In this document: one piece after another, positions 24,738 to 63,940 of the stretch
Numbering within the stretch: the first letter of the stretch is position 1
Layout: every line of letters starts with the position of its first letter
Assembly: GCF_001530125.1 (NCBI RefSeq)
Contig: NZ_LDUG01000018.1
Span: 201,171 to 265,170 of the forward strand
Length of the DNA: 64,000 bases
Source: Thiobacillus denitrificans
GTDB taxonomy: Bacteria; Pseudomonadota; Gammaproteobacteria; Burkholderiales; Thiobacillaceae
Direction of reading: 5' to 3'
Position numbers and translations under genes: made by a program
The notes under the pieces: generated by a model
What the model saw: the letters and a program-made list of their open reading frames with translations, nothing else
What the model was told of the DNA's origin: nothing
Database searches by the model: none

Positions 24738-26066
24738 ATGAGAGACATACTGGTCACCGCAATTGTGTTCGGCGTGCTGCCCTTCATCTTCAAGCGGCCG
24801 TGGATCGGTATTTTGCTGTGGTGCTGGCTGGGCTACATGAACCCGCATCGGCAGGCCTGGGGCTTTGCCTACGATATGCCGTTCGCTTTCATGACCGCCG
24901 TCGTCACCATCGTCGCCTTTGCGTTCTCGAAAGAGAAAAAGGAAATGGTCTGGACGCGCGAAACTATCCTGCTGCTGCTGTTTATCGGCTGGATGCTCAT
25001 CACCACGTTTTTCGCGTTCTATTCCGAGCTGGCATGGGCGCAGTGGAGCAAGGTCTGGAGAATCCAGCTCATGGTGTTTCTGACCCTCATGATCATCAAG
25101 GAACGGAAGCATCTGCACTGGATGATCTGGGTCATCGCCCTGTCGCTGGGCTACTACGGGGTCAAGGGCGGCATTTTCACCATCCTTCACGGCGGCCAGT
25201 TCAGGGTGCAGGGCCCGACCGGTACCTTCTTTGCCGGCAACAATGAAATGGCGCTGGTGCTGGCCATGCTTGTTCCGCTGATCCGCTATTTGCATTTGCA
25301 GGCGACCCAGCAATGGGTACGCTGGGGGCTGGCGTCAGCCATGGTGTTGTCCGGGATTGCTGCCATTGGCAGCCAGTCGCGTGGCGGATTGCTGGCGATG
25401 GCGGCCATGGGCCTGTTCCTGTGGTTCAAGAGCCGCCACAAGTTTGTCATGACTATTTACATGGTGATCGCGGTTGCGATCATGGCATCGGTGATGCCGC
25501 AGGAATGGTATGACCGCATGAATACGATCAAGTCCTATGAGGAAGACTCCTCGGCCCTGGGGCGCATCAACGCCTGGCATACCGCATTCAATGTAGCGAA
25601 GGACCAGGTCACCGGTGGCGGGTTCGAAATGTTCAGGGCGCCGACCTTCCGCCAATATGCGCCCGAGCCCTTCAGGGTGCACGACGTGCACAGCATCTAC
25701 TTCGAGGTGATGGGCGAGCACGGTTTCATCGGCTTCGGCATGTTCATCCTGCTGGCGGTGTTCGCCTGGTTGCGCGCCAACCAGGTCATCCGCGAGTGCA
25801 AGCATGACCCCGGGCGAAAATGGGCGTCCGATCTGGCCGCGATGATCCAGGTCAGCCTGGTCGGATACGGGGTGGGGGGTGTCTTCCTGGGGCTGGCCTA
25901 TTTCGACCTGACCTATCACCTGATGATTATCCTTGTGATGGTAGCCAAGTTCTCGGGTGTGCTGGACAAAATCGCACCAGCCATGAACCCGGTGAAAAAC
26001 AGCATGCCGCCGCATCCGTCCAGCCGGTTTGAGCATGAAGGTGCGGGGCGGCGCATAGGCAGGTAG
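24738..26066 (+). CDS. Putative O-glycosylation ligase / Wzy-like polymerase, exosortase A-associated
   Basis: This 442-residue polytopic membrane protein opens 'MRDILVTAIVFGVLPFIFKR' and is the family linked to XrtA loci (TIGR03097-like) within the O-antigen ligase/Wzy superfamily. About ten TM segments are seen, with the conserved 'IGSQSRGGLLAMAAMGLFLW' and a periplasmic loop containing 'TGGGFEMFRAPTFRQYAP'. It would polymerise or ligate undecaprenyl-linked repeat units in the periplasm. GGAG at 24724 supports the ATG at 24738. Confidence 0.9.
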   Translation: MRDILVTAIVFGVLPFIFKRPWIGILLWCWLGYMNPHRQAWGFAYDMPFAFMTAVVTIVAFAFSKEKKEMVWTRETILLLLFIGWMLITTFFAFYSELAWAQWSKVWRIQLMVFLTLMIIKERKHLHWMIWVIALSLGYYGVKGGIFTILHGGQFRVQGPTGTFFAGNNEMALVLAMLVPLIRYLHLQATQQWVRWGLASAMVLSGIAAIGSQSRGGLLAMAAMGLFLWFKSRHKFVMTIYMVIAVAIMASVMPQEWYDRMNTIKSYEEDSSALGRINAWHTAFNVAKDQVTGGGFEMFRAPTFRQYAPEPFRVHDVHSIYFEVMGEHGFIGFGMFILLAVFAWLRANQVIRECKHDPGRKWASDLAAMIQVSLVGYGVGGVFLGLAYFDLTYHLMIILVMVAKFSGVLDKIAPAMNPVKNSMPPHPSSRFEHEGAGRRIGR

Positions 26067-26462
26067 GAGCACCCGCAAGGGGTAGGCCGTGTTTGTAAGC
26101 CGCTTATGCGGCAACAACCACGCACCGGTGCCCTCGCCGCGATTTTCGCACCGTCGCAATCACCACGGCATCGGGCCGGGGGCGACCCTCCTACAACAGC
26201 ACGGACCTGCAGCATTCACCGGTAGGAGCACCCGCAAGGGGTAGGCCGTGTTTGTAAGCCGCTTATGCGGCAACAACCACGCACCGGCGCCCCCGCCGCG
26301 ATTTTCGCATCGTCGCAATCACCACGGCATCGGGCCGGGGGCGACCCGCCTACAACAGCGCGGACCTGCAGCATTCACCGGTAGGAGCGGCGCCCTCGCC
26401 GCGATTTTCGCACCGTCGCAATCACCATAGCATCGGGCCGGGGCGACCCTCCTACAACAGCG
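26062..26462. repeat. Tandem copies of the TAGGAGG palindromic repeat (159-bp spacing)
   Basis: Copy 1 begins at 26062 and copy 2 at 26221; both run 'ggtaggagcacccgcaaggg' through 'cctacaacagc' and 'gcggacctgcagcattcacc' with few differences. A third, shortened copy begins at 26380 and ends near 26462. The spacing of the first two copies is 159 bases. Copy 1 starts just inside the end of the preceding gene, whose last codons read into it. Confidence 0.85.
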
Positions 26463-26511
26463 CGGACCTGCAGCAGCGGTAGGTTGGGCTGCCAAGCCCA
26501 ACGCCTTTGCC

Positions 26512-28338
26512 TCAGTGCTCGTTCGCCGTCAGCCACTGCTCCAGCATCATCACCACCCAGATCATCACCCCGTAATAGCTGGCATGCTGGCCGCGCTGCA
26601 TGGCCAGCATGTGGTCCAGATACGCCGGCTGGATCAAACCGCGCTTTTTGAAGTCCGACAGGCTGTCGCCGACGATGTCGCCGAGCGGGGCGTATTGCGT
26701 GCTCCACACGCCGAACGGCAGGCCGAAGCCGTGCTTGGTCTTGTTGATGATCTTTTCCGGCAGCAGGTCGTCCAGCGCTTCCTTGAAGAACCAGCGCAGC
26801 TTTTGCCCGCGCACCTTGTAATCCACCGGCAGATGATTGGCAAACGCGACCAGGCGGTCGTCTAGCAGCGGGTAGTGCACCTCGATCCCTGCCGCTTCCG
26901 TCATCGTGCCGACCTTGCGCAGGTCGTTGTCGGCCAGGGTGAATTTCAGGTCCAGATGCATCAGACGGTTGATGTAATGGTCGGAGCTGGTGCGGTCGTA
27001 GACTTCGCTGAGGGCGGCGTCCGTCGATGAGGGGTCGACCGCACGAATGAAATCCGCCGCAAAAATCTGATCGAGCGGGGTGCGGTGCAGGAAATTGTAG
27101 CTTTCCAGTCGTAGCGGCAGCCCGACCTTGGCCTGGGCGACATAGCTTTTCAGCTTGGACAGCGGGAACCGGTCTGACAGCCCCGGCAAGTTTGCAAGCG
27201 GCTCGATCAGCCCGCGCCGCAGTACGGCGGGCAGGTGGGCATAGGCCTCGAACAGTCGCTGCTTGGCATAGCGCGCGTTGCCGCCAAAGATTTCATCGCC
27301 GCCGTCGCCGGCGAACATGTTCTCGAATCCTGCCTCGCGCGCGGTCTTGGCGCAGAACCAGGTCGGCACCGCTGAGTCGTTGCCGAACGGCTCGTCGTAT
27401 TCGCGCGCGATGATCGGAATCGCGGTCACGATGTCGGCCGGCTTCAGGTAATACTCGTGGCTGCGGCTGCCGTAGCGTTCGGCGGCGCAGCGCGCGTATT
27501 CCATTTCATCGAAACCGTCGGCGTCGAAGCCGATGGAAAAGGTGTCGACCGGCGCGCCGCGCGCGGCGGTGAGGGCGCCGACGATGGTCGAGCTGTCCGT
27601 GCCGCCGGACAGAAACGCTGCGGTGGCCGGCGCATCGGCATCGCGTACCGCTTGCTCCAGCACCTTGCGGAAATCGCGGCGGAGGGGGTCGAAGCCGGCA
27701 TCGACCGGGGTGTAATCGGCCTGCCAGTAAAACCCGGTGCTGACCTGGCCGTTTTTCAGGGTGAGGGTTTGCCCGGGCAGCAGCTTGCGCACGCCCTGAT
27801 ACAGGCTGCGCGGTGCGGGAATGGTGTGGAAATAGAGATAGTCGTAGATTGCCTGCGGGTCGATGACGCGGCCCACGGCGGCGTGGGCCGCCACGCTTTG
27901 CACGCTGCTGCCGAACACCAGCTGGCCGCCGTGCTTGGCGTAACACAGGCGCTCGGCGCCGACGCGGTCGAGCGCCAGAAAGGCTTTTTTCTTCAACGGT
28001 TCGAGCACGGCGAAGGCGAAGTTGCCCTGCATCAGCGTGGGCAGTTTTTCGCCGAAGCGTAGCCAGCCGTGCGCCACCGCCATCGCCGGATTCTGGTCGC
28101 GGGCGATGAAGGCCAAGCCGTCATCGAGAAAGCGCGGTCGTCCGTACAGTGCCGCGGCCAGCCCGTTTTCAACGTGGATTTCGGCCTTGCCGAGGCGCGA
28201 GCAGCCCGCCACCCCCAGCATCTGGCTGCTATGCGCGTGCAGCAGGCCTTCGGGGGATAGGCAGGCCGCCTGCCCCATGTGCTTGATCAAATCCTGATGC
28301 GCGCCGTGCTCGCCCAGCCAGCCGAAAATGCCATCCAT
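26512..28338 (-). CDS. Asparagine synthase-family protein lacking the Cys2 nucleophile
   Basis: A 608-residue two-domain asparagine synthetase homologue. It begins 'MDGIFGWLGEHG', so the N-terminal glutaminase nucleophile Cys is Asp at position 2, while the synthetase half is intact: 'FLSGGTDSST' (residues 242-251) and 'MFAGDGGDEIFGG'. The codon is GAT and no alternative start restores a Cys. The enzyme probably uses free ammonia or another nucleophile, or makes an intramolecular bond as beta-lactam synthetase does; this is inference. It is oriented against the flanking genes and isolated by repeats on the left. Confidence 0.9.
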   Translation of the reverse strand: MDGIFGWLGEHGAHQDLIKHMGQAACLSPEGLLHAHSSQMLGVAGCSRLGKAEIHVENGLAAALYGRPRFLDDGLAFIARDQNPAMAVAHGWLRFGEKLPTLMQGNFAFAVLEPLKKKAFLALDRVGAERLCYAKHGGQLVFGSSVQSVAAHAAVGRVIDPQAIYDYLYFHTIPAPRSLYQGVRKLLPGQTLTLKNGQVSTGFYWQADYTPVDAGFDPLRRDFRKVLEQAVRDADAPATAAFLSGGTDSSTIVGALTAARGAPVDTFSIGFDADGFDEMEYARCAAERYGSRSHEYYLKPADIVTAIPIIAREYDEPFGNDSAVPTWFCAKTAREAGFENMFAGDGGDEIFGGNARYAKQRLFEAYAHLPAVLRRGLIEPLANLPGLSDRFPLSKLKSYVAQAKVGLPLRLESYNFLHRTPLDQIFAADFIRAVDPSSTDAALSEVYDRTSSDHYINRLMHLDLKFTLADNDLRKVGTMTEAAGIEVHYPLLDDRLVAFANHLPVDYKVRGQKLRWFFKEALDDLLPEKIINKTKHGFGLPFGVWSTQYAPLGDIVGDSLSDFKKRGLIQPAYLDHMLAMQRGQHASYYGVMIWVVMMLEQWLTANEH

Positions 28339-28540: not shown

Positions 28541-29506
28541 TTGCAGAGTTTCACCAAGCGTTGCCCTATTGTCAGAAAGCCCAAGCCCTTGAATGCATTC
28601 CTGATCAAAGTCAGCAAAACACTTGCCTACCATGCGCGGCGCGCTCAACGTGGTGTGCGCAGTTTGCGCTGGGCGCTTGCGCGGCGACCTGCGCAGCGCC
28701 CGATCATCGTGGTCGGCTGCTCTCGCGCCGGCACCACCCTGGTCTACAAAACCCTGTCAGAATCGCGCGAGATCGGCAGCCTGCAGCGCGAAACCCACGA
28801 TTACTGGACCGACCTGCATCCGCCGGCCGACAAGCACTGGGACACCCACGCGCTGGATGCCGGCGACGCCAGCCCGGCCGACCGCAACACCGTCAGCCGC
28901 TATTTCTACAGTTGCAGCGGCCACCATCGCTGGGTCGACAAGAACAACCAGAACGGCCTGTGCGTACCCTATCTGCGGGCACTGTTTCCCGATGCCGTGT
29001 TCGTCTTCATCAAGCGCAGCCCCGGCGACAACCTCAATTCGCTGATCGAGGGCTGGCGCAAGCCCGACGAATTCGCCACCTGGTCGAACGACCTGCCGGC
29101 CAAGGTGGCGGTGGAAAATGGCGCGCTGACGCAGTGGTGCTTTTTTCTGGCCGACGGCTGGCGCGAGGTTGTCAATGCGCCGGTCGAGGACGTCGCCGCG
29201 TTCCAGTACACCGCCATCAACCAGGCCATCCTCGACGCGAAGGCCAACGTGCCCGCCGGGCAGTGGGTCGAGGTGTTCTACGAAGACTTCCTGCGCGACC
29301 CAGTCGCTACCTTCCGCCAGGTGTTCGAAGGCTGCGGCCTGGCCTTCGACGCCCGCCTGCAGGCGCACTGCGCCGACGTGCTCGACATCCCCTACAACGC
29401 CTTCTCCGAAATCCGCCTGGATAAATGGAAAGACGGCCGCAACCGGGACAAAGTCGAACGCGTGCTGCCGCAGGTGGCGGATGTCGCCGCCAGGATGGGG
29501 TATTGA
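28541..29506 (+). CDS. Sulfotransferase family protein
   Basis: A protein of up to 321 residues with the sulfotransferase phosphosulfate loop 'VVGCSRAGTTLVYKTL' and a 3'-phosphate region 'VFIKRSPGDNLNSLIEGW'. A basic N-terminal segment precedes the loop. Start choice is uncertain: TTG at 28541 gives the longest form and TTG at 28589 a 305-residue form; neither has a good ribosome site and no in-frame ATG is suitable. It is more distant from the sulfotransferase at 22299 than a recent duplicate would be. Confidence 0.8.
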   Translation: MQSFTKRCPIVRKPKPLNAFLIKVSKTLAYHARRAQRGVRSLRWALARRPAQRPIIVVGCSRAGTTLVYKTLSESREIGSLQRETHDYWTDLHPPADKHWDTHALDAGDASPADRNTVSRYFYSCSGHHRWVDKNNQNGLCVPYLRALFPDAVFVFIKRSPGDNLNSLIEGWRKPDEFATWSNDLPAKVAVENGALTQWCFFLADGWREVVNAPVEDVAAFQYTAINQAILDAKANVPAGQWVEVFYEDFLRDPVATFRQVFEGCGLAFDARLQAHCADVLDIPYNAFSEIRLDKWKDGRNRDKVERVLPQVADVAARMGY

Positions 29507-29543: not shown

Positions 29544-29880
29544 ATTCGGGGCGAGGGCGCCCCTCCTACTATGGGCGGTCGTTGTAGGAGCACCCGCAAG
29601 GGGTAGGCCGTGGTTGAATAGCCGACAAGTCGGCAACAACCACGCACCGGCGCCTTCGCCGCGATTGCCCGCGCCGCATCATCGCCAGCAATCGGCCCGG
29701 GGGCGGGCGAGCATGCTTGTTGCCGCTTCAGCGGCTGTACAAGCATGGCCTACCCCTCGCGGGTGCTCCTACACTCTGGAATATGCCTTTACCGTCATTG
29801 CGAGCGAAGCGCGGCAATCCAGCGCCTTTGTTGAACTGGATCCCGGCGTTCGCCGGGATGATGCAACTCAGAGGGCGTCC
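29544..29880. repeat. Composite of three repeat families
   Basis: From 29544 to 29772 there is a long TAGGAGG element: 'gttgtaggagcacccgcaag', the 'aacaaccacgcaccggcgcc' module, and an inverted end 'cctacccctcgcgggtgctc'. From 29792 a CGTCATTGCGAGCGAAGC element follows, ending with the small palindrome 'tcccggcgttcgccggga'. This fills the whole gap of 376 bases and reaches the ribosome site of the next gene. Confidence 0.78.
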
Positions 29881-29882
29881 CA

Positions 29883-31076
29883 GTGACGATGCTAGCCCTC
29901 GCGCTCGCGGCCATCCTCCTGCTATGGGCCGCCGTCCTGCTCGCCTTCGCCGGCCCCCTCGCCGCGCGCTGGCGCGAACCCGTGCTGCGCCACCCCGTGC
30001 TCGTCATCGAAAGCGACGACTGGGGCGCGGGTCCGCTGGCGCAGGCCGATGCGCTGGCCCGGCTCTCAACCCTGCTGCAACACATCCGCGATCACAGCGG
30101 CCGGCCCGCAGTCATGACCCTCGGCCTCATCCTGGAAGTCCCCGACGGCCCCCGCATCGCCGCCACCCACTGCGCCGAATACCACGCGCTGCCCCTGGCC
30201 GATCCCCGCTTCGACGCCGTGCGCGCTGCCATTCAGTCCGGCATCCGGGCCGGCGTCTTCGCCCCGCAACTCCACGGCCAGTGCCACTACTGGCCGCCTG
30301 CGCTGCTGGCTGCCGCGCGTGACACCCCCGCCGTACGCGACTGGCTCACCGCCCCCGAACCCGCGTCCACCGAAGACCTGCCATCCCCCCTGCAAAGCCG
30401 CTGGGTCGATGCGTCCAGCCTGCCGTCGCGTGCGCTGACGCCAGCCGCGATCCAACAAGCCATCGCCACCGAGGCCGCCGACTACCAGGCCCTGTTCGGC
30501 AGCGCGCCGCAGGTCGCCGTCGCCACCACCTTCGTCTGGAACGACGCCGTCGAAGCCGCCTGGGCCCAGGCGGGGATCGAGGCCATCATCACCCCGGGCC
30601 GCCGTGCCACCTGCCGCAATGCCGCCGGCCAACCGGGCTGCGTGGATGCCACGATGCTGGCAGGTGAGCGTTCACTCGCCGGGCCAAGCTTTCTGGTGCG
30701 CGACGTGTATTTCGAGCCGGCACTGGGGCATGCGCCGCAGCGCCTGGCCGACGGCCTGCGGGCGCGCACCCGGCAGGGGCGCGCCTGCCTGGTCGAAACC
30801 CATCGCTTCAATTTCCTGCAGGCACCGGACGCCAGCCTGACTGCTCTCGAAGCCGGCCTGCGCGAAGCCCTCGCAAGCTGCCCCGATCTGCGCTTTGCTG
30901 CCCCGCTTGAACTTGCACACGCGATGCGAAACCACGACCCGGCCTGGGTCGAAATCCGGCTCAAGCCGCGGCTTGCCGCCTGGCGCGCGCGCCTCGACGA
31001 AATCCCGCGCTTTCGCCGCCTGTCGCAATTAAGCGGTCTGGCCCTGCCGCTGGCCCTGCTGGGGGGGCGCGCATGA
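29883..31076 (+). CDS. Membrane-anchored polysaccharide deacetylase-like protein (uncharacterised)
   Basis: A 397-residue protein with one N-terminal TM segment (about residues 3-25) and then a region that resembles the NodB/glycoside hydrolase-deacetylase barrel: 'VLVIESDDWGAG' offers an Asp pair and 'APQLHGQCHYW' a His pair at the expected spacing, and 'VETHRFNF' a later His. The canonical TFDDG motif is missing, so function is inferred from fold-like spacing only. The GTG at 29883 has GAGGG 7 bases upstream; the ATG at 29889 is less well spaced. The stop overlaps the next gene's ATG. Confidence 0.62.
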   Translation: MTMLALALAAILLLWAAVLLAFAGPLAARWREPVLRHPVLVIESDDWGAGPLAQADALARLSTLLQHIRDHSGRPAVMTLGLILEVPDGPRIAATHCAEYHALPLADPRFDAVRAAIQSGIRAGVFAPQLHGQCHYWPPALLAAARDTPAVRDWLTAPEPASTEDLPSPLQSRWVDASSLPSRALTPAAIQQAIATEAADYQALFGSAPQVAVATTFVWNDAVEAAWAQAGIEAIITPGRRATCRNAAGQPGCVDATMLAGERSLAGPSFLVRDVYFEPALGHAPQRLADGLRARTRQGRACLVETHRFNFLQAPDASLTALEAGLREALASCPDLRFAAPLELAHAMRNHDPAWVEIRLKPRLAAWRARLDEIPRFRRLSQLSGLALPLALLGGRA

Positions 31077-31999: not shown

Positions 32000-32018
32000 T
32001 GCATGGACGTCCGCATTC

Positions 32019-32525
32019 GGCCCGAGGCGGGCTTCCACAACGCCACCGGACTCACCTGTGGGAGCGGCGCCCTCGCCGCGATTGCCCGCACAGCACAAAC
32101 GCCCGCATTCGCCCCGAGGGCGGGCCTCCCACAAGCATGGTCTGCGCCGCGCAACGGCCTGCAATCGGCCCGGGGGCGGGCCTCCCACAAGCATGGTCTG
32201 CCCCTGGTGGGTGCGCCTACACTCTCTTGTGGGGTCCCCGCAAGGGGGAGGCCATGGCTGTCAAGCCACTGAAGCGGCAACAGCCATGCACCGGCACCCC
32301 CGCACTCACCTGTGGGAGCGGCGCCCTCGCCGCGATTGCCCGCACAGCACAAACGCCCGCATTCGCCCCGGGGGCGGGCCTCCCACAAGCATGGTCTGCG
32401 CCGCGCAACGGCCTGCAATCGGCCCGGGGGCGGGCCTCCCACAAGCATGGTCTGCACCGCACAAACGTCCGCATTCGCCCCGAGGGCGGGCCGCCTACGT
32501 CATTCCGGCGGACGCCGGAATCCAG
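32019..32525. repeat. Repeat cluster with a 151-bp direct duplication
   Basis: 32051-32201 and 32305-32455 are direct repeats differing at about one position, each holding 'ctcacctgtgggagcggcgc' and two 'gggcgggcctcccacaagca' arms. A 'gtccccgcaagggggaggcc' module lies between them. The last part ends with the palindrome 'attccggcggacgccggaat' at about 32502-32521. The full gap of 549 bases is repeat-derived and no gene is supported. Confidence 0.85.
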
Positions 32526-36434: not shown

Positions 36435-39400
36435 TTACTGCGGGTTGTTCAGCGTATTGGAAGCTGCGAGCGCGGCTGCGGAGCTGCCGCATGATTTTAT
36501 CGTTTTGTCATCGTTGTCATTGACAGACGCAACTTCAGGCATGCGGCCGATCCATACGGACAGCCTTTGCCACAACATGGTTGCTATATCCGCATGCTGG
36601 TCGATCTGGTTCTGTTTGCACATGGGGTCCTCCACGACGTCGAAGAGCTGGAGCAGGTGGCCGTCGCTGAGCGGTTGATAGACGAGTTTCCAGCGGCCAC
36701 GCCTGATCATGCGGTCCTTGGCAGCGAAGATGGTGTCGCAGTATTCGGGTTTGATGGCGAGCGTTCCGCTGCCACGGTTCGGCACTTCCATCAGTTCCAG
36801 CAAATCCGGGTAGCGCAGGTGATCGTCGGGCAGCCCCGGTATATCCGCTATCCAGATGCCGGTCTCGTTGAAAGCATCGAGTTCTGGGCAGACACGGTCA
36901 GTCCCTATGCAACTGACAAGGGACACGCCGTCCATATTACTGGTTGCGGGATGACCGCATAATTCCAAAAGTGTCGGGGCCAGATCGATTGTGCGGACGA
37001 CATCGTCGACTCTTCCTCTGGCCGGCAGGCGCGGATCGCGAATCACCAGCGGAATGCGCGGGCTCGCCTCGCCGACAGCCGAATTGCCCTGGCCCCAGGT
37101 GTCGTGCTCGAAGAACTCCATGCCATGGTCGGAGTAGACGACGACGATGGTATTGCCGGCCAGGCCACAGGTTTCAAGATGCGTCAGCATCTTCCCCACT
37201 TCGTCGTCGAACTCGGCCACGCAGCCGTCGTACAGATCGATGATCTGGTCGAGGTCGAATTCCGCCTTCGGCGCGCCCTGGCGGCGAATGATGTCGAACG
37301 GGTCAGTGAGCCGGGCCATGGCGAACTTGGATTCGCCCGCATAGGCTGGATCAGCGAAGCGCGTATACCACGGCCATTCCGATGCAAACGGCGGATGGGT
37401 GGTGGAATAGAACACGTTGAGAAAAAACGGTTGCGGGCTTTCCGCCAGGCGCGACACCAGCCGCCGCGCGCGCTTGCCCAAAGGCTGCGTCAATGGCACC
37501 CCGCCCAGATAATACAGCTCGGGCAGCATCAGCCGTCCCAGCCGGTTGTGGGTGAACAGAGACAGGTACAGGCGCAGATCCTTGGGACCCTGGCGAATCA
37601 GGTACTTCAGGTTCCACTGGTCTTCGGGCAGGTCGGTGTAATCAAAACCGAAGGAAAACTTTCCCATGTCGCCACCGCACCAGTCCGAGAGCGCGGCGGT
37701 GCGATAGCCCACCTGCTTCAGCAGCGTGGGCAGGGCATCGACTTTCAGGCGCGTGTCCTCGTCAGCAACAAAGTTGTCGCGGATGCCATGGGTGTGCGGC
37801 CAGGTGCCGGTCAGCATCGAAATCAGGCTGGGGGCGGTACGCGCGCACGGTACATAACAGTTGGCAAACAGCGTGCCGGCCGCGGCCAGTGCATCGATGT
37901 TCGGCGTCAGCGCGCGATGGTAGCCCAGCGCGCCCAGGCGGTCGGCGCGCAGCGTGTCGGAGCCGATCATCAGAATGTTGGGCGGCGCATCGGCCGCCCG
38001 TATCGGCAGTTTGCGCGGTGCGCGTGCCTGCGGCTGCCAGCCCGTCCAGGTGATCGTCCCGGCAAAAAACAGCGTGGCTGCCCACAACGCCATCAGGTCG
38101 CCGATGCGGTTCTCCTTCGCCAACTGCCAGGTGGCGGCCGCGAACAGCAGCCCGGCCAGACTCATTGCCCCCCACTGCAGGCCCGCGATGCGGGCCGGGG
38201 TCATCCACTGCCACAGCGGATACAGCCGGCTCATGCGGTAATGCATCGACGCCACCAGGAGGCCGGGGTTGAAGCGCAGCTTGCGGATAAATTGCAGCGA
38301 GAACGCGCCCAGCACGCCCAGGATGGCGGCAATGAAGACCAGGCCCGCCGACCACGTCGTGCCGAGCACCGTATTGAGCATGAAGTACAGCAACACCCCC
38401 GCGCCGCCGGTGAACAGCATCAGCGCGAACGCCCAGGCAGTCAGGCGTGCCAGTGCAAACAGGGTGTAGCGCCGGTAATGGGTGAGCACTTCCTCGCGCA
38501 TACGCGGCCCGGTTTGGGAAAAATCGAGCAGCGATTTGGCGAGCAGCGCTGCCGCCCCCACGACTGCCACACCCATCGCGGGCAGGATGCCGGCCCAGCG
38601 CGCATCGCCGGCGGCGAACCAGGCGATGAGGCCGCAGGCGGCAGCGAGCAGGGCCAAGGCCTCGATGCCCACCATGCCGCGGTCGGGCGGCAGGGCAAGT
38701 CCGCGGCCGCGATAACCCGACTCGCGCCGGCCATGAACCTCGCCCAATGCAGCCGCCGTCCGTATCCAGTAGAAGCGGCGCCTGGCCCACGACAGGCTGA
38801 ACAGGCTGTGAAAACCATATTCCGCAAGCTTGCGCCACATGAAAAGCGGCACCCGGCCGTTGCCGTGAATGCGCGAGGTGGAGCGCGTGCGCTGATAGCT
38901 TTTCTTCAGCAGATAACCAAGCCTGAGTCGCTCGGTGTCGACGTAATGGTGCTGCACCATGTCCGGGGTATATTGGCATCGCACGCCGCGATGCATGGCG
39001 CGCAGCACATATTCGCTGTCCTCGCCGCCGCCCAGGTCATGCCCGTGCGGTCCCAGTTCGGTGGAAAACTCGCCGGCCAGTTCGAATACATTACGCCGCA
39101 CCACCAGATTGCCACCACCCGGGATGGGCCCTTCCTCGGGGGTGATCGTCTTGGGCTGTTTCTCCTGGTCGTAGCGCGGAACGGGCAGCGGATAAATCCG
39201 GTAGGGCCCATTGTCATGTACCCATGCGGGTTCGCTGCCGTCCCAGTCAGGCAGGATGCGGCCGCAATACAGCCCCGCATCCGGCCAGGTTTGCGCCGCC
39301 TGTTCGATGGCGACCAGATAGTTTTCATCGACCCGGTGATCGTCATCGACAAACGCGGTGAGTTCGGTGTCGATTTCCGGTATGGCGCGATTCAGCGCAT

Positions 39401-39632
39401 GCGACTTGCCGGGCGTGGGCACCTCGATCAGCCGCAACGGTAGCCAGCCTTTTTCGTCTTGCTGCGCCTGATACGCTTGCATGCGCGTGACGGTGTCATC
39501 GGTGCAGGCATTGGCTGCCACCAGAATCTGCACGGGCATGGCAGGGCGCTTTGCCGCATTGAGTGAAGCCAGCACACGTTCCAGTAGATCGGCCCGGTTG
39601 TGGGTGCAGATGAGGATGGTGAGCGCGGTCAC
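36435..39632 (-). CDS. GT2 glycosyltransferase - membrane domain - sulfatase-fold transferase fusion
   Basis: A 1065-residue three-part protein. Residues 1 to about 260 are a GT2 domain ('TILICTHNRADLLERVLASL', DDD in 'TAFVDDDHRVDENY'). Residues about 320-540 hold six or so TM segments. Residues about 550-1010 are a sulfatase/alkaline-phosphatase-fold domain ('ILMIGSDTLRADRLGALGY', 'VVVYSDHGMEFFEHDTWGQG'). At the position where sulfatases carry formylglycine Cys/Ser, the sequence is 'TAPSLISMLTG' with Thr599, as in LtaS- and EptA-type phosphotransferases. This points to phospho-substituent transfer or hydrolysis and not classical sulfatase activity. The frame is unbroken and both ends overlap or abut neighbours, so it is not an assembly artefact by appearance. 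Confidence 0.88.
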   Translation of the reverse strand: MTALTILICTHNRADLLERVLASLNAAKRPAMPVQILVAANACTDDTVTRMQAYQAQQDEKGWLPLRLIEVPTPGKSHALNRAIPEIDTELTAFVDDDHRVDENYLVAIEQAAQTWPDAGLYCGRILPDWDGSEPAWVHDNGPYRIYPLPVPRYDQEKQPKTITPEEGPIPGGGNLVVRRNVFELAGEFSTELGPHGHDLGGGEDSEYVLRAMHRGVRCQYTPDMVQHHYVDTERLRLGYLLKKSYQRTRSTSRIHGNGRVPLFMWRKLAEYGFHSLFSLSWARRRFYWIRTAAALGEVHGRRESGYRGRGLALPPDRGMVGIEALALLAAACGLIAWFAAGDARWAGILPAMGVAVVGAAALLAKSLLDFSQTGPRMREEVLTHYRRYTLFALARLTAWAFALMLFTGGAGVLLYFMLNTVLGTTWSAGLVFIAAILGVLGAFSLQFIRKLRFNPGLLVASMHYRMSRLYPLWQWMTPARIAGLQWGAMSLAGLLFAAATWQLAKENRIGDLMALWAATLFFAGTITWTGWQPQARAPRKLPIRAADAPPNILMIGSDTLRADRLGALGYHRALTPNIDALAAAGTLFANCYVPCARTAPSLISMLTGTWPHTHGIRDNFVADEDTRLKVDALPTLLKQVGYRTAALSDWCGGDMGKFSFGFDYTDLPEDQWNLKYLIRQGPKDLRLYLSLFTHNRLGRLMLPELYYLGGVPLTQPLGKRARRLVSRLAESPQPFFLNVFYSTTHPPFASEWPWYTRFADPAYAGESKFAMARLTDPFDIIRRQGAPKAEFDLDQIIDLYDGCVAEFDDEVGKMLTHLETCGLAGNTIVVVYSDHGMEFFEHDTWGQGNSAVGEASPRIPLVIRDPRLPARGRVDDVVRTIDLAPTLLELCGHPATSNMDGVSLVSCIGTDRVCPELDAFNETGIWIADIPGLPDDHLRYPDLLELMEVPNRGSGTLAIKPEYCDTIFAAKDRMIRRGRWKLVYQPLSDGHLLQLFDVVEDPMCKQNQIDQHADIATMLWQRLSVWIGRMPEVASVNDNDDKTIKSCGSSAAALAASNTLNNPQ

Positions 39633-40549
39633 GAACGCGAGCGGTAACCCATCAAGGCACCAAACGCATGTGACGCGTTCATGCCCTGTCGCAGCGCGCC
39701 CGGGCGTCCGGTGAGTTGCATGCCGATGGCCTTGGCGGCTTGCCGCAGAAACTGCGTAACGAGGAAGGGCGGCAGGCCCAGATAAATTTTATGATAAGTT
39801 GGCAACCGGTGCTGGCCATGGCGCAGACCTGCGCGGTAATGCAGTTTGAGGAAGTAGCTGCGCGTCAGGCGCCATTCTTCCACCGTATGCAGTACGGCCA
39901 TTTCAGGGCGATAGCGGATGCGTGCCTTGCGCTCCAGCAGGGTACGGAACATGATGGCGTCGGAGCCTCCCCCGACAACATTTCCGACGCGGTCGAAGCG
40001 CTTGTCGAAACGCAATGTCAGGTCATTCCGGAACAGGCGCATGTCATAGGCGACGTTCGCTGTCCAGATCGGCGTGCTGGCGTCCTGAATCCAGAAGGCG
40101 TCCGCACCATGATTGACGGCCGCCAGAAATCCCAACAGGTCGTCTTCGAGCCAGGGTGGGCGGGGGATCGTGGTGAAGTCCATTTCCACGCGCCCGCCCG
40201 CGCATTCGGCGCCTTCGTTCAGGATCGCGTCTGCGGCGGCCTCGATCAGCCCCGGAAGAGGGATTTCGTCGTCGTCGATATAGACCAGGATGTCGCTGTC
40301 CAGCGCCTCGGCAATGCCGCGGTTGCGCGCAGCGACAATCCCTTGAACAGGCTCGGTCACCCAGCGCAATGTAGGACCCGGAAACTGTGCAAGCTGCGTC
40401 AGCACTTCGGTCGTGCTGTCGGTGCTGTTGTTGTTGATCGCCAGAACCTCGAACGGAATCGGACAGCTTTGCGCGCGCATGGCGGCGACCAGCTTTTCCA
40501 GTCGGTCGGCACGGTTGTAGGTGCAAAATGCAAAAGTGAGCAGGGGCAT
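39629..40549 (-). CDS. Glycosyltransferase, GT2 family
   Basis: A 306-residue GT-A enzyme: 'LTFAFCTYNRADRLEKLVAAM', 'EVLAINNNSTDSTTEVLTQ' and the metal site 'DILVYIDDDEIPLPGLI'. The ATG at 40549 is preferred over a TTG two codons upstream. Its stop overlaps the start of the GT2-sulfatase fusion by 4 bases, so the two are co-translated. The N-terminal domain of the fusion belongs to the same subfamily. Confidence 0.89.
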   Translation of the reverse strand: MPLLTFAFCTYNRADRLEKLVAAMRAQSCPIPFEVLAINNNSTDSTTEVLTQLAQFPGPTLRWVTEPVQGIVAARNRGIAEALDSDILVYIDDDEIPLPGLIEAAADAILNEGAECAGGRVEMDFTTIPRPPWLEDDLLGFLAAVNHGADAFWIQDASTPIWTANVAYDMRLFRNDLTLRFDKRFDRVGNVVGGGSDAIMFRTLLERKARIRYRPEMAVLHTVEEWRLTRSYFLKLHYRAGLRHGQHRLPTYHKIYLGLPPFLVTQFLRQAAKAIGMQLTGRPGALRQGMNASHAFGALMGYRSRS

Positions 40550-40639
40550 GGTCAAAATTTGGCGTGGTTGCGTGCGCTACGCCGGAGGCCGCACGCTGCG
40601 GCGTTGTGCAGGGCATGACGGCAGGGATCAGCGCGGAAA

Positions 40640-50349: not shown

Positions 50350-52182
50350 TCAGGTCGGGGGGCAACCGGCCCGGTCGTGATTCGGTTCATGTGTTGGGCC
50401 GTTTTTAAAAGTGCCTAATTGCAGGAGCAACCCGGTCATGGTTTTGTAGCGTGCGCCATCGACAATTGGGTCGGGGGTAACAAGAGGCGTGCTGGGGCGA
50501 GGTAGCATGTCCTCAAGCGTTTCGGCGTCCAGCAGGTCTCTCGTTAAGGGGCGGTAATTTTCGGCCAATTGCCGAACAGCATGCCAACCTTGGCTGTTCA
50601 CATCGTAATGTCGAACAAACTGTCGCCGCTCGATTTGTTTCCCTGGGAATTTCCAGGAATCAAATCGTGAAAGCATGATGTGTCGGAGTTTCGAGGCTTG
50701 ACTGAATATCAATGGGCGTATATCTGGCCCACCCCGGTCCAGCGGCAAAGCCGCCAACCTGGGAAGCTTGTTGCTCAGCATGTTGATTTGGGCGAGGCGC
50801 TCGGCAAAGGCCGACGCTGCCATGCCGGCCATAATGTTCAGTAAGTCCAGGTCAACGTAAGGGTATGTTGGCCAGGCCCCGTATGAAAGTCGCCATGCCG
50901 CCCCACTAACATGGTGCCGTTGGCGGTGGTGCAAGTCGAACAACCAGCACTTCTGGAATGACATGCCGTCGTATCCAGACCAAGTCTTGTGCAACTCTTC
51001 TACAATTGCTTCGGCAAGGCCTGGTTGTCCAATGAGCTTGGAGATTACTTCTGCCTTGAACCCAAGACGATTCACACTTTTAAACTGGGCGCGAAAATCG
51101 TATTCAGAAAAATCCTTGTTAAATCCTTCGGCAAGGTGGCTTCCGCCCATCACTGAGTCGCCCAATAGGCCCGTCATAATTCTGGGTTTAAGCTTGTTTA
51201 CAGTGCCTGCAGCTTGCCACCACATGAATTCGACGAAGCTGGACTGCATGCCTTCCAATCTTGCCTGGATAGGCGCCCATGTTGGATAGGCGTCTAGATT
51301 CACTGGAACAGGGTGCATGGACCAGCCCAGGCTCGCCGAAACCCGGCGCGCGCATTGCATTTCATAGTCCGTCGATTCACCGAGGGTAACGACGGGAACT
51401 TTGTAACGAGCATGCCAACGCAGGCAGCCGGCCACTAAACGCGAGTCGAGGCCGCCTGACAGGAGCACGGAAGTTTCACCGAGTTTGTCGAGTCTTTGTA
51501 CGGCTTCGTTGAAGCTGTTCTGGATCAGGTTCTGGCAGCGTGATGGCGGCCACCCGAAATAGCTGTCATGTGCCTTGAGCGAGTTGACATCGGACAGCCT
51601 GATGCCTTCCCCCTTTCGCCAGCGCAACAAGTGGCCGGGCGGAAGTCGTTTGACATCCTGCCATGTGGTGCGGTTGGCGGTCGCATGCATGGTCAAAAGA
51701 ATGCCAGCTATTCCCATGAGATCTGGTTTTGCGGTGAAGCCAGGATGGGAACAGAACGCATTGGGGCTCGTGGAAAAGCAGAAGTGATCGGTTCCCCCCC
51801 AGTAATACACTGGCATCAGGCCGAGTTGGTCGGCCGCGAGATAAATGGTCTCGTGCTCATCGATCATGCCGGTCAGGTGATAACCATTCTGCCGCGCCAG
51901 CATTTCCGGGCCGTTTTCCCGGCATTGAGAATGCAGCCAGGTGGCATTGTCCAATTGAGTTGTGTGCAGGATGTCGCCGAGGACGAATACTGACTGTCCT
52001 GAAGGGGCTTCAAACGTTGAATAGGGCGCTTGGGGGGCGGAGTCAAGCGTGAGCGCAAGTCGTCCCAATCGGGTGTCAGTGTGCTTGAGCCATGGCAGAT
52101 CGGGGGCCAGCTTGCGGCTGCCCTCCAGGAAGAGTCTGGCCCACTGGGCATTGGCGTCGAGTGTCCCGGTGAAGAGTGTCAT
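50350..52182 (-). CDS. Asparagine synthase-family protein without glutaminase Cys
   Basis: A 610-residue asparagine-synthetase-like protein. It begins 'MTLFTGTLDANAQW', with no Cys at position 2 and no candidate upstream, yet an Ntn-type N-domain is still recognisable ('IYLAADQLGLMPVYYWG'). The PP-loop 'LLSGGLDSRLV' (residues 240-250) is intact. It therefore probably adenylates a carboxylate without using glutamine. The start has AGGAAAA upstream. It lies between Wzt and the QueC-like gene. Confidence 0.88.
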   Translation of the reverse strand: MTLFTGTLDANAQWARLFLEGSRKLAPDLPWLKHTDTRLGRLALTLDSAPQAPYSTFEAPSGQSVFVLGDILHTTQLDNATWLHSQCRENGPEMLARQNGYHLTGMIDEHETIYLAADQLGLMPVYYWGGTDHFCFSTSPNAFCSHPGFTAKPDLMGIAGILLTMHATANRTTWQDVKRLPPGHLLRWRKGEGIRLSDVNSLKAHDSYFGWPPSRCQNLIQNSFNEAVQRLDKLGETSVLLSGGLDSRLVAGCLRWHARYKVPVVTLGESTDYEMQCARRVSASLGWSMHPVPVNLDAYPTWAPIQARLEGMQSSFVEFMWWQAAGTVNKLKPRIMTGLLGDSVMGGSHLAEGFNKDFSEYDFRAQFKSVNRLGFKAEVISKLIGQPGLAEAIVEELHKTWSGYDGMSFQKCWLFDLHHRQRHHVSGAAWRLSYGAWPTYPYVDLDLLNIMAGMAASAFAERLAQINMLSNKLPRLAALPLDRGGPDIRPLIFSQASKLRHIMLSRFDSWKFPGKQIERRQFVRHYDVNSQGWHAVRQLAENYRPLTRDLLDAETLEDMLPRPSTPLVTPDPIVDGARYKTMTGLLLQLGTFKNGPTHEPNHDRAGCPPT

Positions 52183-52226: not shown

Positions 52227-53498
52227 CTATTTGACTGCGCAACACGCGCCGTCCGTTTTTTGTTGCAGGGCGTAGTGCTGGCCATCGACAAGAAACTCGG
52301 TCGGCAGGTCGACCATTTTCCACTGGCTGTTCATCGATTCCAGGCGCTTCGCCTTGACGGTAAAGGTCTTGAGGGATTCACCGTTGAAAAGATGGCGCCA
52401 GTTCTTGTCGAGAAACACGAGGCGAACGGAGTAGGTGCCTGCGGCGAGCGGAAAGCTGGGCACGATGTATTCGATTTCATGCGCGCCGCGGCTGAAAGGC
52501 ATGTTCGGCAGGAAGTCGTGCGTGCTGGCTGAGCTGATGTACACAAAATCGGTGCGGTGGGTGCCTGCCACGATTTCAAGGCCTGCAAGGTCATGCAACA
52601 ACGTGAACCTGACTCTGATGCGGAGCCTTTCGCCGGACTCGATTTCGCTCACGGCATGGCCGTGGTCGTCGAGTATGTCGATGGAGTCGATCGTGACCTC
52701 GCCGGAGCCAGAGACCTTGGCTACTGCGGCTTGATGCGCCTGGGCTTCGATTTTGGAATTGCTTTGCTGGTAGAAAAGCTCACAGACCTCGGTTGCCGTG
52801 CCGTCTGCGATGGCTTTGCCATGATCCATCAGGATGACCCGGCTGCAGATGCGCTCTACTTGCCTGATGTTGTGGCTGACCAGAAGAACGGTTCGGCCCT
52901 GGTTCTTGATGATGTCTTCCATGCGGTCGAAGCACTTGCGCTGGAATGCCAGGTCACCGACGGCCAGCACTTCGTCGACGATCAGGATTTCGGCCTCGAT
53001 GCTGGTGGCGACGGCGAAAGCGAGCTTGACCTGCATGCCTGAACTGTAACGTTTGACAGGAGTATCGATGAATTCCGCCATTTCGGCGAAGTCGACGATC
53101 TCGTCGAATTTCCTGTCGATTTCCTGTTTTGACATGCCGAGGATGGCGCCGTTGAGATAGACGTTCTCGCGCCCGGTGAAGTCCGGCACGAAACCGGCGC
53201 CCACCTCGATGAGGGGTGCGATACGGCCGTTGGCCATGACCGAACCGCGGGTGGGTGTGCTGATTTTCGCCAGCATCTTGAGGAGGGTGGACTTGCCTGC
53301 ACCGTTGTGGCCGATGATGCCGACAACTTCGCCTGGTTCGATGGCGAAGCTGACGTCATCCAGCGCCTTGAAGAGGGGGCGCTCGGGTATCGTTTTGCCC
53401 ATGAGCCGTGCTCCGGCGTTGAGCAGGGTCTGCTTGAGCCCTTGCATGGCCCCGAGGCGGTATTCTTTGGTGAGGTGGCTGACTTCGATGACAGGCAT
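52227..53498 (-). CDS. wzt: ABC transporter ATP-binding protein for polysaccharide export (Wzt)
   Basis: A 423-residue ATPase. The N-terminal 240 residues have Walker A 'GHNGAGKSTLLK', the signature 'YSSGMQVKLAFA' and Walker B 'EILIVDEVLAVGD', as in the O-antigen/capsule Wzt group. About residues 255-423 are a C-terminal Wzt_C-type beta-sandwich ('GEVTIDSIDILDDHGHAVSE'), which in characterised homologues binds the modified end of the glycan and couples completion to export. It predicts that chain termination of this polymer is sensed by Wzt. Confidence 0.94.
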   Translation of the reverse strand: MPVIEVSHLTKEYRLGAMQGLKQTLLNAGARLMGKTIPERPLFKALDDVSFAIEPGEVVGIIGHNGAGKSTLLKMLAKISTPTRGSVMANGRIAPLIEVGAGFVPDFTGRENVYLNGAILGMSKQEIDRKFDEIVDFAEMAEFIDTPVKRYSSGMQVKLAFAVATSIEAEILIVDEVLAVGDLAFQRKCFDRMEDIIKNQGRTVLLVSHNIRQVERICSRVILMDHGKAIADGTATEVCELFYQQSNSKIEAQAHQAAVAKVSGSGEVTIDSIDILDDHGHAVSEIESGERLRIRVRFTLLHDLAGLEIVAGTHRTDFVYISSASTHDFLPNMPFSRGAHEIEYIVPSFPLAAGTYSVRLVFLDKNWRHLFNGESLKTFTVKAKRLESMNSQWKMVDLPTEFLVDGQHYALQQKTDGACCAVK

Positions 53499-53507
53499 GG
53501 CGTGTAC

Positions 53508-54326
53508 TCAGATGACGTCGGCGAAATAGCTTTCCGCGCGCTTGAAGTAAAGGTAGCTGAGCGGCAGCAGGATGACGATCATGATTGCCCCCGGGATCAT
53601 GGCGTTCAGATCCGGCGGCGCCCCCCGCAGGACGACATTCTGGAAGGCATCGATGATGCCAGCCAGGGGGTTGAGGGTGTACAGGGTATAGAGCGTATCG
53701 GACCACTCGCCTGCGGCCTGCTGCACCAGCAGTTTGTCCTTGACCAGTTGCAGGGGGTAGATGACCGGGGAAATGTACATCAGTAGGGAGAGCATCACCG
53801 GCAGGGCCGCACCTACATCGCGGTAATAAACATTGATGGCCGCGCCGGCGAAGGCGATGGTGAGCGCTGCGAGGATGGTGTAGGCGATGATGAGGGGCAC
53901 CCACAGGATGTAAATGCTGGGCATCATCTGGTACCAGACCATCAGCCCCGCCAGGATGACAAAGCTGATGCCCAGTTCAACCAGCTTGGTGAGGACGGAG
54001 GTGATGGGGAAGATCTCGCGCGGAAAGTAGATTTTCTTGATCAGCGCCGTGTTGCCGACGACGCTGGTGACCCCTTCGGACGTGGATTCCTGAAAGAATG
54101 TCCACGGCATGAGCGCAGCGAAAACCAGGATGGGATAGGGAATGTCGCCGCTTTCGATGCCGACGAAGCTCTTCACCAGGGTGAAGATCAGCATGAGCAT
54201 GACCGGCTTGAGGATGGCCCAGGCGATGCCCAGGTAGGCCTGCTTGTAGCGCAGGGTGACGTTCTTCCACGCCAGCGTGGCCATCAGTTCGCGGTAGTCG
54301 TAGAGGTTCTTGGCGATGGTGAGCAT
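53508..54326 (-). CDS. wzm: ABC transporter permease for polysaccharide export (Wzm)
   Basis: A 272-residue ABC-2 permease beginning 'MLTIAKNLYDYRELMATLAW', with 'LRYKQAYLGIAWAILKPVM' and 'YFPREIFPITSVLTKLVELG', both typical of Wzm/KpsM proteins. Six TM segments are evident. The ATG at 54326 gives the family N-terminus; an upstream in-frame extension is not supported. It is the first clear gene of the 20-kb leftward cluster and pairs with the Wzt gene 9 bases downstream. Confidence 0.94.
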   Translation of the reverse strand: MLTIAKNLYDYRELMATLAWKNVTLRYKQAYLGIAWAILKPVMLMLIFTLVKSFVGIESGDIPYPILVFAALMPWTFFQESTSEGVTSVVGNTALIKKIYFPREIFPITSVLTKLVELGISFVILAGLMVWYQMMPSIYILWVPLIIAYTILAALTIAFAGAAINVYYRDVGAALPVMLSLLMYISPVIYPLQLVKDKLLVQQAAGEWSDTLYTLYTLNPLAGIIDAFQNVVLRGAPPDLNAMIPGAIMIVILLPLSYLYFKRAESYFADVI

Positions 54327-54648
54327 GGGGTTAGGTATTGCCTGATTGTGAAGCGGTTTTCTTTTCCCGCTTCGAATCGTCATCAACAATGGTTTTGAGA
54401 TCAAATCGGGCGGGTTTCCACTGCAGTGCCTGGCTGCCTGCAGATTCTTTGGCCACTCGCGGTAATGGTTCATTGCTAGCTGCTACGTCGCGATATGCCG
54501 TTGATCGGTTGTCAACCATGACGACATCGCAACGCCGGCGCGAACCCATAAACCCCGCCCCACCGCCGACGAGCGGGCGATGTGGTGCGCTTGGAGTGAT
54601 GGGGGCGGATGGGATCATGGGTGGCTATTGTAAATGCAGAAGATGTTA
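54327..54648. other. Leader region of the second polysaccharide cluster
   Basis: About 320 bases lie between wzm and the possible -24/-12 element. On the minus strand a 95-codon frame (54618 down to 54331) ends 4 bases before the wzm ATG, coding a hydrophilic protein with 'FDLKTIVDDDSKREKKTASQ'. It has no ribosome site and no recognised homologue, so it is not called as a gene. A long 5' leader is the other possibility. Confidence 0.35.
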
Positions 54649-54778: not shown

Positions 54779-55030
54779 CTGTAGGAGGGGCGCCCCCGTG
54801 CCGATTTTCGCGCCGTCGCAATCTCCACGGCATCGGGCCGGGGGCGGCCCTCCTACAACAGCGGGTGAGGCGACCGGCCGTAGGTTGGGCTGCCAAGCCC
54901 AACGCATTCAACAGCGGGTGAGGCGGCCGGCCGTAGGTTGGGCTGCCAAGCCCAACGCATTGGACTGCGCTTGCCAGGAATGGGCTTATGCGTCTGGTGT
55001 GTTGGGCTGAATGAAATGAAGCCCAACACG
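54779..55030. repeat. TAGGAGG hairpin followed by two GTTGGGCT palindromes
   Basis: 'tgtaggaggggcgcccccgt' at 54780 pairs with 'cgggccgggggcggccctcc' ending near 54857. Then 'taggttgggctgccaagccc' occurs at 54880 and again at 54933, with 'gttgggctgaatgaaatgaa' and 'gcccaac' further on. It continues to within 20 bases of the HepT stop. Confidence 0.82.
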
Positions 55031-57231: not shown

Positions 57232-57915
57232 CAAGGGGGAGGCCGCTGAAGGCCCGCAAGGCGGGATGGATAAGAGTTCGTATGCGGCAACAACTACGCA
57301 CCGTCGCTCTCGCGGCGCAACCTTTTCGGCATCGGCCCGGGGGCGGGCCTGCCACAACAACGCGGACTTGTGGGAGGGGCGCCCCCGCCTCGATTTTCGC
57401 GCCGTCGCAATCTCCACGGCATCGGGCCGGGGGCGGCCCTCCTACAACAGCGGGCGAGGCGGCCGGCCGTAGGTTGGGCTGCCAAGCCCAACGCATTGGA
57501 CTTGTGGGAGGGGGCGCCCCCGCCTTGATTTTCGCGCGGGCTTGTGGGAGGGGCGCCCCCGCCCCGATTTTCGCGCCGTCGCAATCTCCACGGCACCGGG
57601 CCGGGGGCGACCCTCCTACAACAGCGGGCGAGGCGACCGGCCGTAGGTTGGGCTGCCAAGCCCAACGCATTGGACTTGTGGGAGGGGCGCCCCCGCCCCG
57701 ATTTTCGCGCCGTCGCAATCTCCACGGCACCGGGCCGGGGCGGCCCTCCTACAACAGCGGGCGAGGCGACCGGCCGTAGGTTGGGCTGCCAAGCCCAACG
57801 CATTGGGCTTGTGGGAGGGGCGCCCCCGCCCCGATTTTCGCGCCGTCGCAATCTCCACGGCATCGGGCCGGGGGCGGCCCTCCTACAACAGCGCGGATTT
57901 GTGGGAGGGCCCGCC
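57232..57915. repeat. Tandem array of palindromic repeats, about 133-bp period
   Basis: Units starting 'cttgtgggaggggcgccccc' occur at 57367, 57541, 57675 and 57808, with a partial one at 57501. Each runs through 'cgattttcgcgccgtcgcaa', 'ctcctacaacagcgggcgag' and 'taggttgggctgccaagccc'. Each unit therefore joins the TAGGAGG hairpin and the GTTGGGCT palindrome into a composite. A long-form module lies before it at 57232-57357. Open frames across the array are low-complexity artefacts. Confidence 0.9.
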
Positions 57916-63357: not shown

Positions 63358-63390
63358 TTTTATAAGGCTCTTTCATCGTTATTTGTTGGT

Positions 63391-63940
63391 ATTGGCCAGC
63401 ACTGTGGGCGGGGCGTCCTCGCCCCGATTTGCGCGCCGTCGCAACCTTCACGGCATCGGCCCGGGGGCGGGCCTCCTACAACAGCCCCCCTGGCGGCGAG
63501 GTCTTTTGGTATTGGCCAGCGCTGTGGGCGGGGCGCCCTCGCCCCGAATTACGCACCGTCGCAACCGCCACGGCATCGGCCCGGGGGCGGGCCTCCTACA
63601 ACAGCACCCCTGGCGGCGAGGTCTTTTGGTATTGGCCAGCGCTGTGGGCGGGGCGCCCTCGCCCCGAATTACGCACCGTCGCAACCGCCACGGCATCGGC
63701 CCGGGGGCGGGCCTCCTACAACAGCACCCCTGGTGGCGAGGCCTTTTGGTATTGGCCAGCGCTGTGGGCGGGGCGCCCTCGCCCCGAATTACGCACCGTC
63801 GCAACCTTCACGGCATCGGCCCGGGGGCGGGCCTCCTACAACAGCACCCCTGGTGGCGAGGCCTTTTGGTATTGGCCAGCGCTGTGGGCGGGGCGCCCTC
63901 GCCCCGATTTGCGCACCGTCGCAACCGCCACGGTATCTGG
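63391..63940. repeat. Tandem array of five 120-bp palindromic units
   Basis: The phrase 'attggccagcgctgtgggcg' begins at 63391 (one base different), 63511, 63631, 63751 and 63871, exactly 120 bases apart. Each unit holds 'ggggcgccctcgccccgaat' facing 'cggcccgggggcgggcctcc' and 'tacaacagcacccctgg'. The fifth unit is cut short after about 65 bases. Because 120 is divisible by three, open frames run through the array on both strands, but they are repetitive and not genes. The last 50 bases of the window are unrelated and end 'cttcgtgtccttcgcgg'. Confidence 0.93.

Follow-up and report, generated by a model that had tools for sequence, protein, structure and literature searches.

A window of 64,000 nucleotides from Thiobacillus denitrificans (assembly GCF_001530125.1, contig NZ_LDUG01000018.1, positions 201,171 to 265,170; "the window" is this whole stretch, and L and G numbers are our labels for loci and genomes) contains a gene of 1065 codons, which fuses a glycosyltransferase of family 2 (GT2), a membrane region and a C-terminal domain of the sulfatase fold, a fold of the alkaline phosphatase superfamily. 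The fusion is a conserved family. In the favoured reading, which comes close to an even chance, it is a bifunctional enzyme of exosortase A-linked polysaccharide synthesis, in which both the GT2 and a threonine-dependent phosphotransferase face the cytoplasm. This reading is supported by the domains, the fold, the conserved Thr and metal-type residues, the six predicted helices, the loop charge, an additional PF04464 domain in one relative (L096), the exchange of the GT2 half and the link to the exosortase A-associated ligase. We infer the phosphotransferase activity, its donor and acceptor, the catalysis and the order of steps.

Architecture, distribution and active site

An earlier note on this DNA had described one unbroken gene, without giving the strand, in which a GT2 is joined through a membrane region to an alkaline-phosphatase-fold domain. 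The gene was found to lie on the minus strand, and the domain order was borne out by Pfam, which identified Glycos_transf_2 (PF00535) at residues 5-183 (E 2.7e-13, 50.6 bits versus a cut-off of 23.3) and a Sulfatase domain at residues 551-893 (E 1.5e-44), and by a hydropathy analysis, which showed six hydrophobic segments between them. Membership of the GT2 class was verified by the PF00535 score together with the acidic metal motif, since Asp96-98 and Glu204-Asp205 are invariant where present (Asp96-98 in 70/70 rows with a residue in the census). The best NCBIfam match of this half was the HpsE-type polysaccharide GT2 (99.7 bits, below the cut-off of 300), a type without a sulfatase-fold part. 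The GTG start of the fusion shares bases with the TGA stop of an upstream GT2 gene (GTGA).

Named genomes yielded 188 matches; the best 80 represent 79 distinct loci, on which all counts of named loci rest. They occur in Thiobacillus, Nitrotoga, Thauera, Aromatoleum, Sulfuricella, Sulfuriferula and others. The whole fusion was present in one frame in 64 of them (47-90% identity), five had the membrane-sulfatase part joined to a different GT2, one (L119) had the halves as adjoining genes, eight were truncated by contig ends, and one (L083) had no match before residue 100. A missed stop, which would have meant two genes, a frameshift or an assembly artefact was rejected, because the frame is unbroken in relatives whose identity ranges from 90% to 47%. 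A sample of 300 genomes of the order, including the window's own, contained eight further full-length fusions at 49-88% identity, a lone GT2 match (G129) and another five genomes in which the fusion is split or incomplete (G088, G201, G206, G045, G266). In a draw of 398 genomes from the phylum one genome besides the window's matched at 1e-30, with the GT2 only. Targeted searches of one open-access library listed no description of the architecture, in agreement with the earlier note, which knew of no characterized example.

Fold and sequence comparisons placed the C-terminal domain in the branch of the formylglycine-dependent sulfatases (SulfAtlas S1) and phosphonate monoester hydrolases (PMHs), its closest relatives. 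With NCBIfam models it scored 127 bits as arylsulfatase versus 22.8 as LtaS, 21.4 as YejM and 20 as CptA, the latter three far below their cut-offs (970, 825 and 404), so that it does not match these families. No LtaS or EptA chain was among the matches listed in the fold searches, an absence that proves nothing, and the membrane part gave no usable structural match. The S1 fold with the equivalents of His211 and Asp317 is retained.

The active site, in contrast, departs from that of S1 sulfatases. In the alignment Thr599 superposes on the nucleophilic Cys of the solved sulfatases 6hhm, 7oz8 and 7p24, and residue 599 is Thr in 79/79 rows that have a residue there (81 rows in total, two without). 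The formylglycine motif (C/S)-x-P-x-R, as it is defined in passages of PMC5066984, is replaced by T-A-P-S-L; the equivalent of Arg55, residue 603, is Leu in 78 rows and Met in one (again two of 81 without a residue). The same passages state that oxidation of Thr would yield a ketone and not formylglycine. The place of AtsA Lys375 is taken by Gln848 in 78/78 rows. Asp650 and Cys652 align with the Lys and His of 7p24 (the Lys113/His115 places), an alignment that is less certain, as Lys stands there in only 5 of 12 S1-like matches read from the same order. All 12 of these matches keep the Cys and Arg of the motif and the Lys at the Lys375 place. Because the formylglycine motif is lost, the domain is not a classical sulfatase, and the label "sulfatase" would be misleading.

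A predicted Thr nucleophile with a putative metal site of the LtaS/EptA type was recovered: Asp559 is present in 79/79 rows with a residue, Asp835, His836 and His746 each in 78/78, and Thr599, Asp559, Asp835 and His836, the predicted nucleophile and metal ligands, are unchanged in rows as low as 44% identity. The earlier note had numbered Thr599 correctly and rightly compared its position with the nucleophile of LtaS and EptA. Its comparison with LtaS/EptA-type phosphotransferases held in part, for the Thr, the metal-type residues and the lost formylglycine motif, whereas the sequence as a whole is nearer to S1 sulfatases.

In an alternative, the C-terminal domain would be a cytoplasmic, PMH-like phosphodiesterase or phosphatase that drives or edits the GT2 reaction by trimming its product, which would be lipid-linked or a nucleotide. 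This appears unlikely, since the PMHs that are grouped with the sulfatases reportedly use formylglycine (passages in PMC5066984), and LtaS, EptA and BcsG are transferases.

Predicted topology and proposed mechanism

AlphaFold2 modelled six long helices both for the whole protein (81 sequences, mean predicted local distance difference test score, pLDDT, 84.2) and for the membrane part alone (61 sequences, mean pLDDT 89.2). The block pLDDT of the long helices was mostly 90-98, and both models contain two additional short helices at residues 456-476, which were taken as interfacial. GT2 enzymes as a class use cytosolic donors. Because of this, and because the GT2 begins at the N-terminus and no signal sequence is visible, the GT2 was taken to be inside, and six crossings would therefore return the sulfatase-fold domain to the inside. 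Loop charges were in agreement: the sum of Lys and Arg averaged 19.9 in GT2-side loops versus 1.9 in the other loops (75 rows including the window protein; least difference 14), and for the window protein the count places the domain inside (21 versus 3). As a control, a PF00884 paralogue of the same genome was scored with its domain outside, as expected (11 versus 2); its best NCBIfam matches were phosphoglycerol transferase I (71.6 bits) and LtaS (52.2 bits), both below cut-off. Three of the four split relatives (L119, L041 and L042) are without helix A; in these the N-terminus scored out and the domain in. Thus five helices with an outward catalytic domain, as in LtaS and EptA, were not recovered, and both the GT2 and the sulfatase-fold domain are predicted to face the cytoplasm. 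Apart from the fusion, the control paralogue (phosphoglycerol-transferase/LtaS-like) is the genome's sole PF00884 match; it lies outside the window about 27 kb from the fusion (L047:5619-7541), has five hydrophobic segments and contains the Thr.

One relative carries a further domain. In Candidatus Nitrotoga sp. 1052 (L096, 10907-15271) a single frame of 1454 codons encodes the GT2, the six-helix region, the sulfatase-fold domain and, after it, a PF04464 domain of the CDP-glycerol glycerophosphotransferase type (E 5.7e-13), which would need a cytosolic donor.

The earlier note had assigned the second domain to the periplasm, with chemistry across the membrane. As helix parity and loop charge predict the cytoplasmic side, it was probably wrong on this point. 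A cytoplasmic GT2 with a periplasmic Thr domain, which modifies the exported glycan like BcsG, EptA or LtaS, is rather unlikely, although the known membrane-anchored Thr enzymes of the superfamily face outward, for example BcsG, which has five helices and is bound to the GT2 synthase BcsA (passages of PMC11470070 and PMC7576196), and the split relative L045 scores outside. Against it stand the six rather than five long helices in two models, the charge count, which is inside for the window protein and three of four split forms while the control is outside as expected, and the C-terminal PF04464 domain of L096.

BcsA and BcsG, the cellulose synthase and phosphoethanolamine transferase of E. coli, are the closest working analogue. 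BcsA is a GT2 enzyme. The likeness is that this membrane enzyme is physically paired with an alkaline-phosphatase-fold enzyme on one glycan (described in passages of PMC11470070). In contrast to these two proteins, of which BcsG carries its catalytic module in the periplasm and has five helices, the fusion is one chain with six predicted helices, and its domain is S1-sulfatase/PMH-like instead of LtaS/EptA-like and predicted on the opposite membrane face. With LtaS, EptA and YejM it shares the Thr nucleophile, a putative metal site of the Asp/Glu, Asp, His type and a multi-helix anchor (as far as described in PMC7576196), but the sequence match is weak, helix number and predicted side are different, and these enzymes lack a GT2. 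From formylglycine sulfatases and PMHs it is set apart by Thr599, Leu603 and Gln848 in place of Cys/Ser, Arg and Lys375.

For the favoured cytoplasmic phosphotransferase the following sequence of steps can be proposed. The N-terminal GT2 would extend a membrane-held glycan by one sugar, with a nucleotide sugar as its donor, and the six helices would anchor the protein and return the C-terminal domain to the side of the GT2, which is the cytoplasmic one. Asp559, Asp835 and His836 would hold a metal that activates Thr599. The phospho-group, whose donor might be a phospholipid head group or else a cytosolic nucleotide-alcohol, would be taken up as phospho-Thr and then passed to the newly made or a neighbouring sugar before export.

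Several points weigh against this proposal. Per residue, Lys and Arg differ only modestly between the two sides (0.18 versus 0.12), as the loops on the outer side are very short, and the split relative L045 scores with its domain narrowly outside (10 versus 8). The helix strings for the charge count were chosen by hand, and the sidedness rests on helix parity and charge. The PF04464 fusion was found in a single genome, and no relative of this domain was present in the other fetched fusion loci, so that PF04464 was dropped as a general partner. Among the neighbour families scanned there was no conserved donor-making gene, and the sulfotransferase neighbours (see below) could point to sulfate and not to phosphate.

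That the domain is catalytically dead and serves for binding or scaffolding only would fit the replacement of several sulfatase residues, but it is improbable in view of the invariance of the nucleophile and metal-type residues in relatives of as little as 44% identity.

If the cytoplasmic phosphotransferase is real, Thr enzymes of the sulfatase superfamily can modify glycans on the inner face of the membrane also, and one protein couples the addition of a sugar with chemical capping. It would also open a way to test the chemistry of the exosortase A-linked polysaccharides in sulfur-oxidising and related bacteria.

Exchange of the GT2 half

The five loci with a different GT2 (L081, L087, L089, L092 and L103) share 71-89% identity with the window protein in the membrane-sulfatase part, but their N-terminal part is another GT2, which was typed with Pfam on L087; the remaining four N-terminal parts have 68-90% identity to that of L087. 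The DNA of the window gene and L081 was compared in bins of 20 codons. Identity was 31-51% in every bin before the LPPD junction (45% in the last one), rose to 77% in the bin starting there and to 93% in the next, and the seven bins after the junction bin were at 88-95%. More distant pairs step less sharply (L055/L103 from 33 to 65%, L051/L092 from 32 to 58%).

On a quick tree of the membrane-sulfatase part, built without bootstrap, the GT2 type switches at least four times, and all four switches are forced by branches with a Shimodaira-Hasegawa-like approximate likelihood ratio test value of at least 95. The count leaves out L086, L102, L113 and L116, in which the N-terminal part is not visible; L086 lies at a contig edge, and its N-terminal part resembles the usual GT2. 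When labels were shuffled, 43/500 shuffles needed as few changes, showing that the GT2 label is hardly clustered. The pattern fits a repeated exchange at one junction; whole-gene transfer would likewise raise the number of GT2 type changes on the tree.

It is tempting to speculate further that the family represents an inside-out branch of the Thr phosphotransferases, namely an S1-sulfatase-like scaffold with Thr, at the cytoplasmic face of the membrane, and with an exchangeable GT2 cartridge that re-aims a constant module to different glycans. This is somewhat less likely than not. The natural swaps at a fixed junction provide a set of homologues for asking which half decides the acceptor.

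Genomic context

The window contains an exosortase A locus, with exosortase A, ligase, chain-length protein, amidotransferase and glycosyltransferases (selected positions in Table 1). The locus assignment was verified by scores above cut-off for TIGR03109, TIGR03097 and TIGR03007 (exosortase A, ligase and chain-length protein). The TIGR03097 ligase was above cut-off in 14/14 genomes with the membrane-sulfatase part versus 67/300 overall (P 2.4e-10 assuming independent genomes, which genomes are not). It was found on the same contig within 18 kb of the family gene in 11/14 genomes and on another contig in three.

Table 1. Positions of the fusion gene, its parts and selected neighbours in the window
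Feature	Position	Strand	Basis or remark
Whole fusion gene, 1065 amino acids, GTG start	36435..39632	-	Open reading frame; same fusion in one frame in 64/79 named loci
GT2 domain, residues 4-305	38718..39623	-	Pfam PF00535/PF13641, residue census, AlphaFold2
LPPD junction, residues 314-317, where the GT2 half diverges in swapped relatives	38682..38693	-	DNA identity of window and L081
Six-helix membrane region, residues 318-531	38040..38681	-	AlphaFold2 of whole protein and of membrane part alone, hydropathy, charge
Sulfatase-fold (alkaline phosphatase superfamily) domain, residues 551-1030, predicted cytoplasmic	36543..37982	-	
Thr599, predicted nucleophile, motif ARTAPSL	37836..37838	-	Aligned with Cys of 6hhm, 7oz8, 7p24
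Upstream GT2 gene, stop overlapping fusion start	39629..40555	-	Pfam
Exosortase A-associated O-glycosylation ligase (TIGR03097), locus marker	24738..26066	+	586.7 bits versus cut-off 188.1
Sulfotransferase (PF13469) of the same region	28541..29506	+	E 8.9e-23; cluster recurs in fusion loci
Wzt-type (with Wzt_C) and Wzm-type (PF01061) ATP-binding cassette glycan exporter genes, upstream on the same strand as the fusion	52227..54473	-	Wzt/Wzm naming is an interpretation

A second association concerned sulfotransferases. A PF13469 gene was present within 10 kb of the ligase in 12/13 genomes with the family (exception G045) versus 2/17 without (G295, G257; Fisher test 1.7e-5, again assuming independence, which does not apply to genomes). 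This comparison left out G266 (with the family) and G082, G200 and G173 (without; short contigs). The genomes without the family were those with the best-scoring ligases and had not been drawn at random. Some flanks are short, because both sets include genomes whose ligase is near the end of a contig (several in all, e.g., G291, G260, G128; G273, G201). The Pfam model replaced a BLAST count (11/14 versus 2/20), whose queries had been taken from fusion loci and which was therefore biased. Neighbours were counted in the fetched flanks of 87 distinct fusion loci (90 less the doubles L033/L049, L035/L095 and L038/L099; L046, L113 and L121 were left out), and a sulfotransferase of one of three clusters was present in 55 of these. 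Both genomes with a split form within the window's family have a sulfotransferase gene between the GT2 and the membrane-sulfatase genes (L041:6524-11460, L042:5635-10591).

The phosphotransferase reading leaves this link to sulfation unexplained, and mainly because of this a further alternative was kept, an active sulfatase or sulfate-transferring enzyme that acts on the product of the neighbouring sulfotransferases. In spite of their association and the S1-sulfatase-like fold, it is very improbable, given that T-x-P-S-L replaces (C/S)-x-P-x-R, that Gln848 occupies the Lys375 place and that the 12 S1-like matches read from the same order have all retained Cys, Arg and Lys.

The minus-strand genes around the fusion encode a deacetylase, methyltransferases, a pyruvyl transferase, several glycosyltransferases and the Wzt/Wzm-type exporter. 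With the deacetylase and transferase genes and an exporter with Wzt_C, the glycan may therefore be finished inside before export. A Wzx-type flippase was found instead or as well in 25/87 loci, and the export route is therefore not fixed. An anti-phage role was rejected, as PADLOC gave no match, and so was a plasmid-borne gene, since only one weak plasmid record was found (28.3% identity over 44% of the query).

Some further features were observed. A protein of 397 amino acids (window 29883-31076), without a Pfam match at E 0.001, belongs to a family present in 43/87 fusion loci, one member of which weakly matches Glyco_hydro_57. The polysaccharide region contains three asparagine-synthase-like genes (17438-19357, 26512-28338 and 50350-52182); two were tested with NCBIfam, and only the first reached the XrtA amidotransferase cut-off. 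GC-rich repeats of about 50-170 bases, in tandem and scattered, were found at 26062-26475, 29583-29777, 32007-32514, 54856-54961, 57361-57893 and 63386-63937, several of them with GCGCCC-CGCC-CGATT-like and CCTCCTACAA-like cores. Genome G028 contains, besides a full fusion, a fragment (L037:12294-12662) about 65% identical to residues 782-928 of the window protein, with a stop inside the matched stretch.
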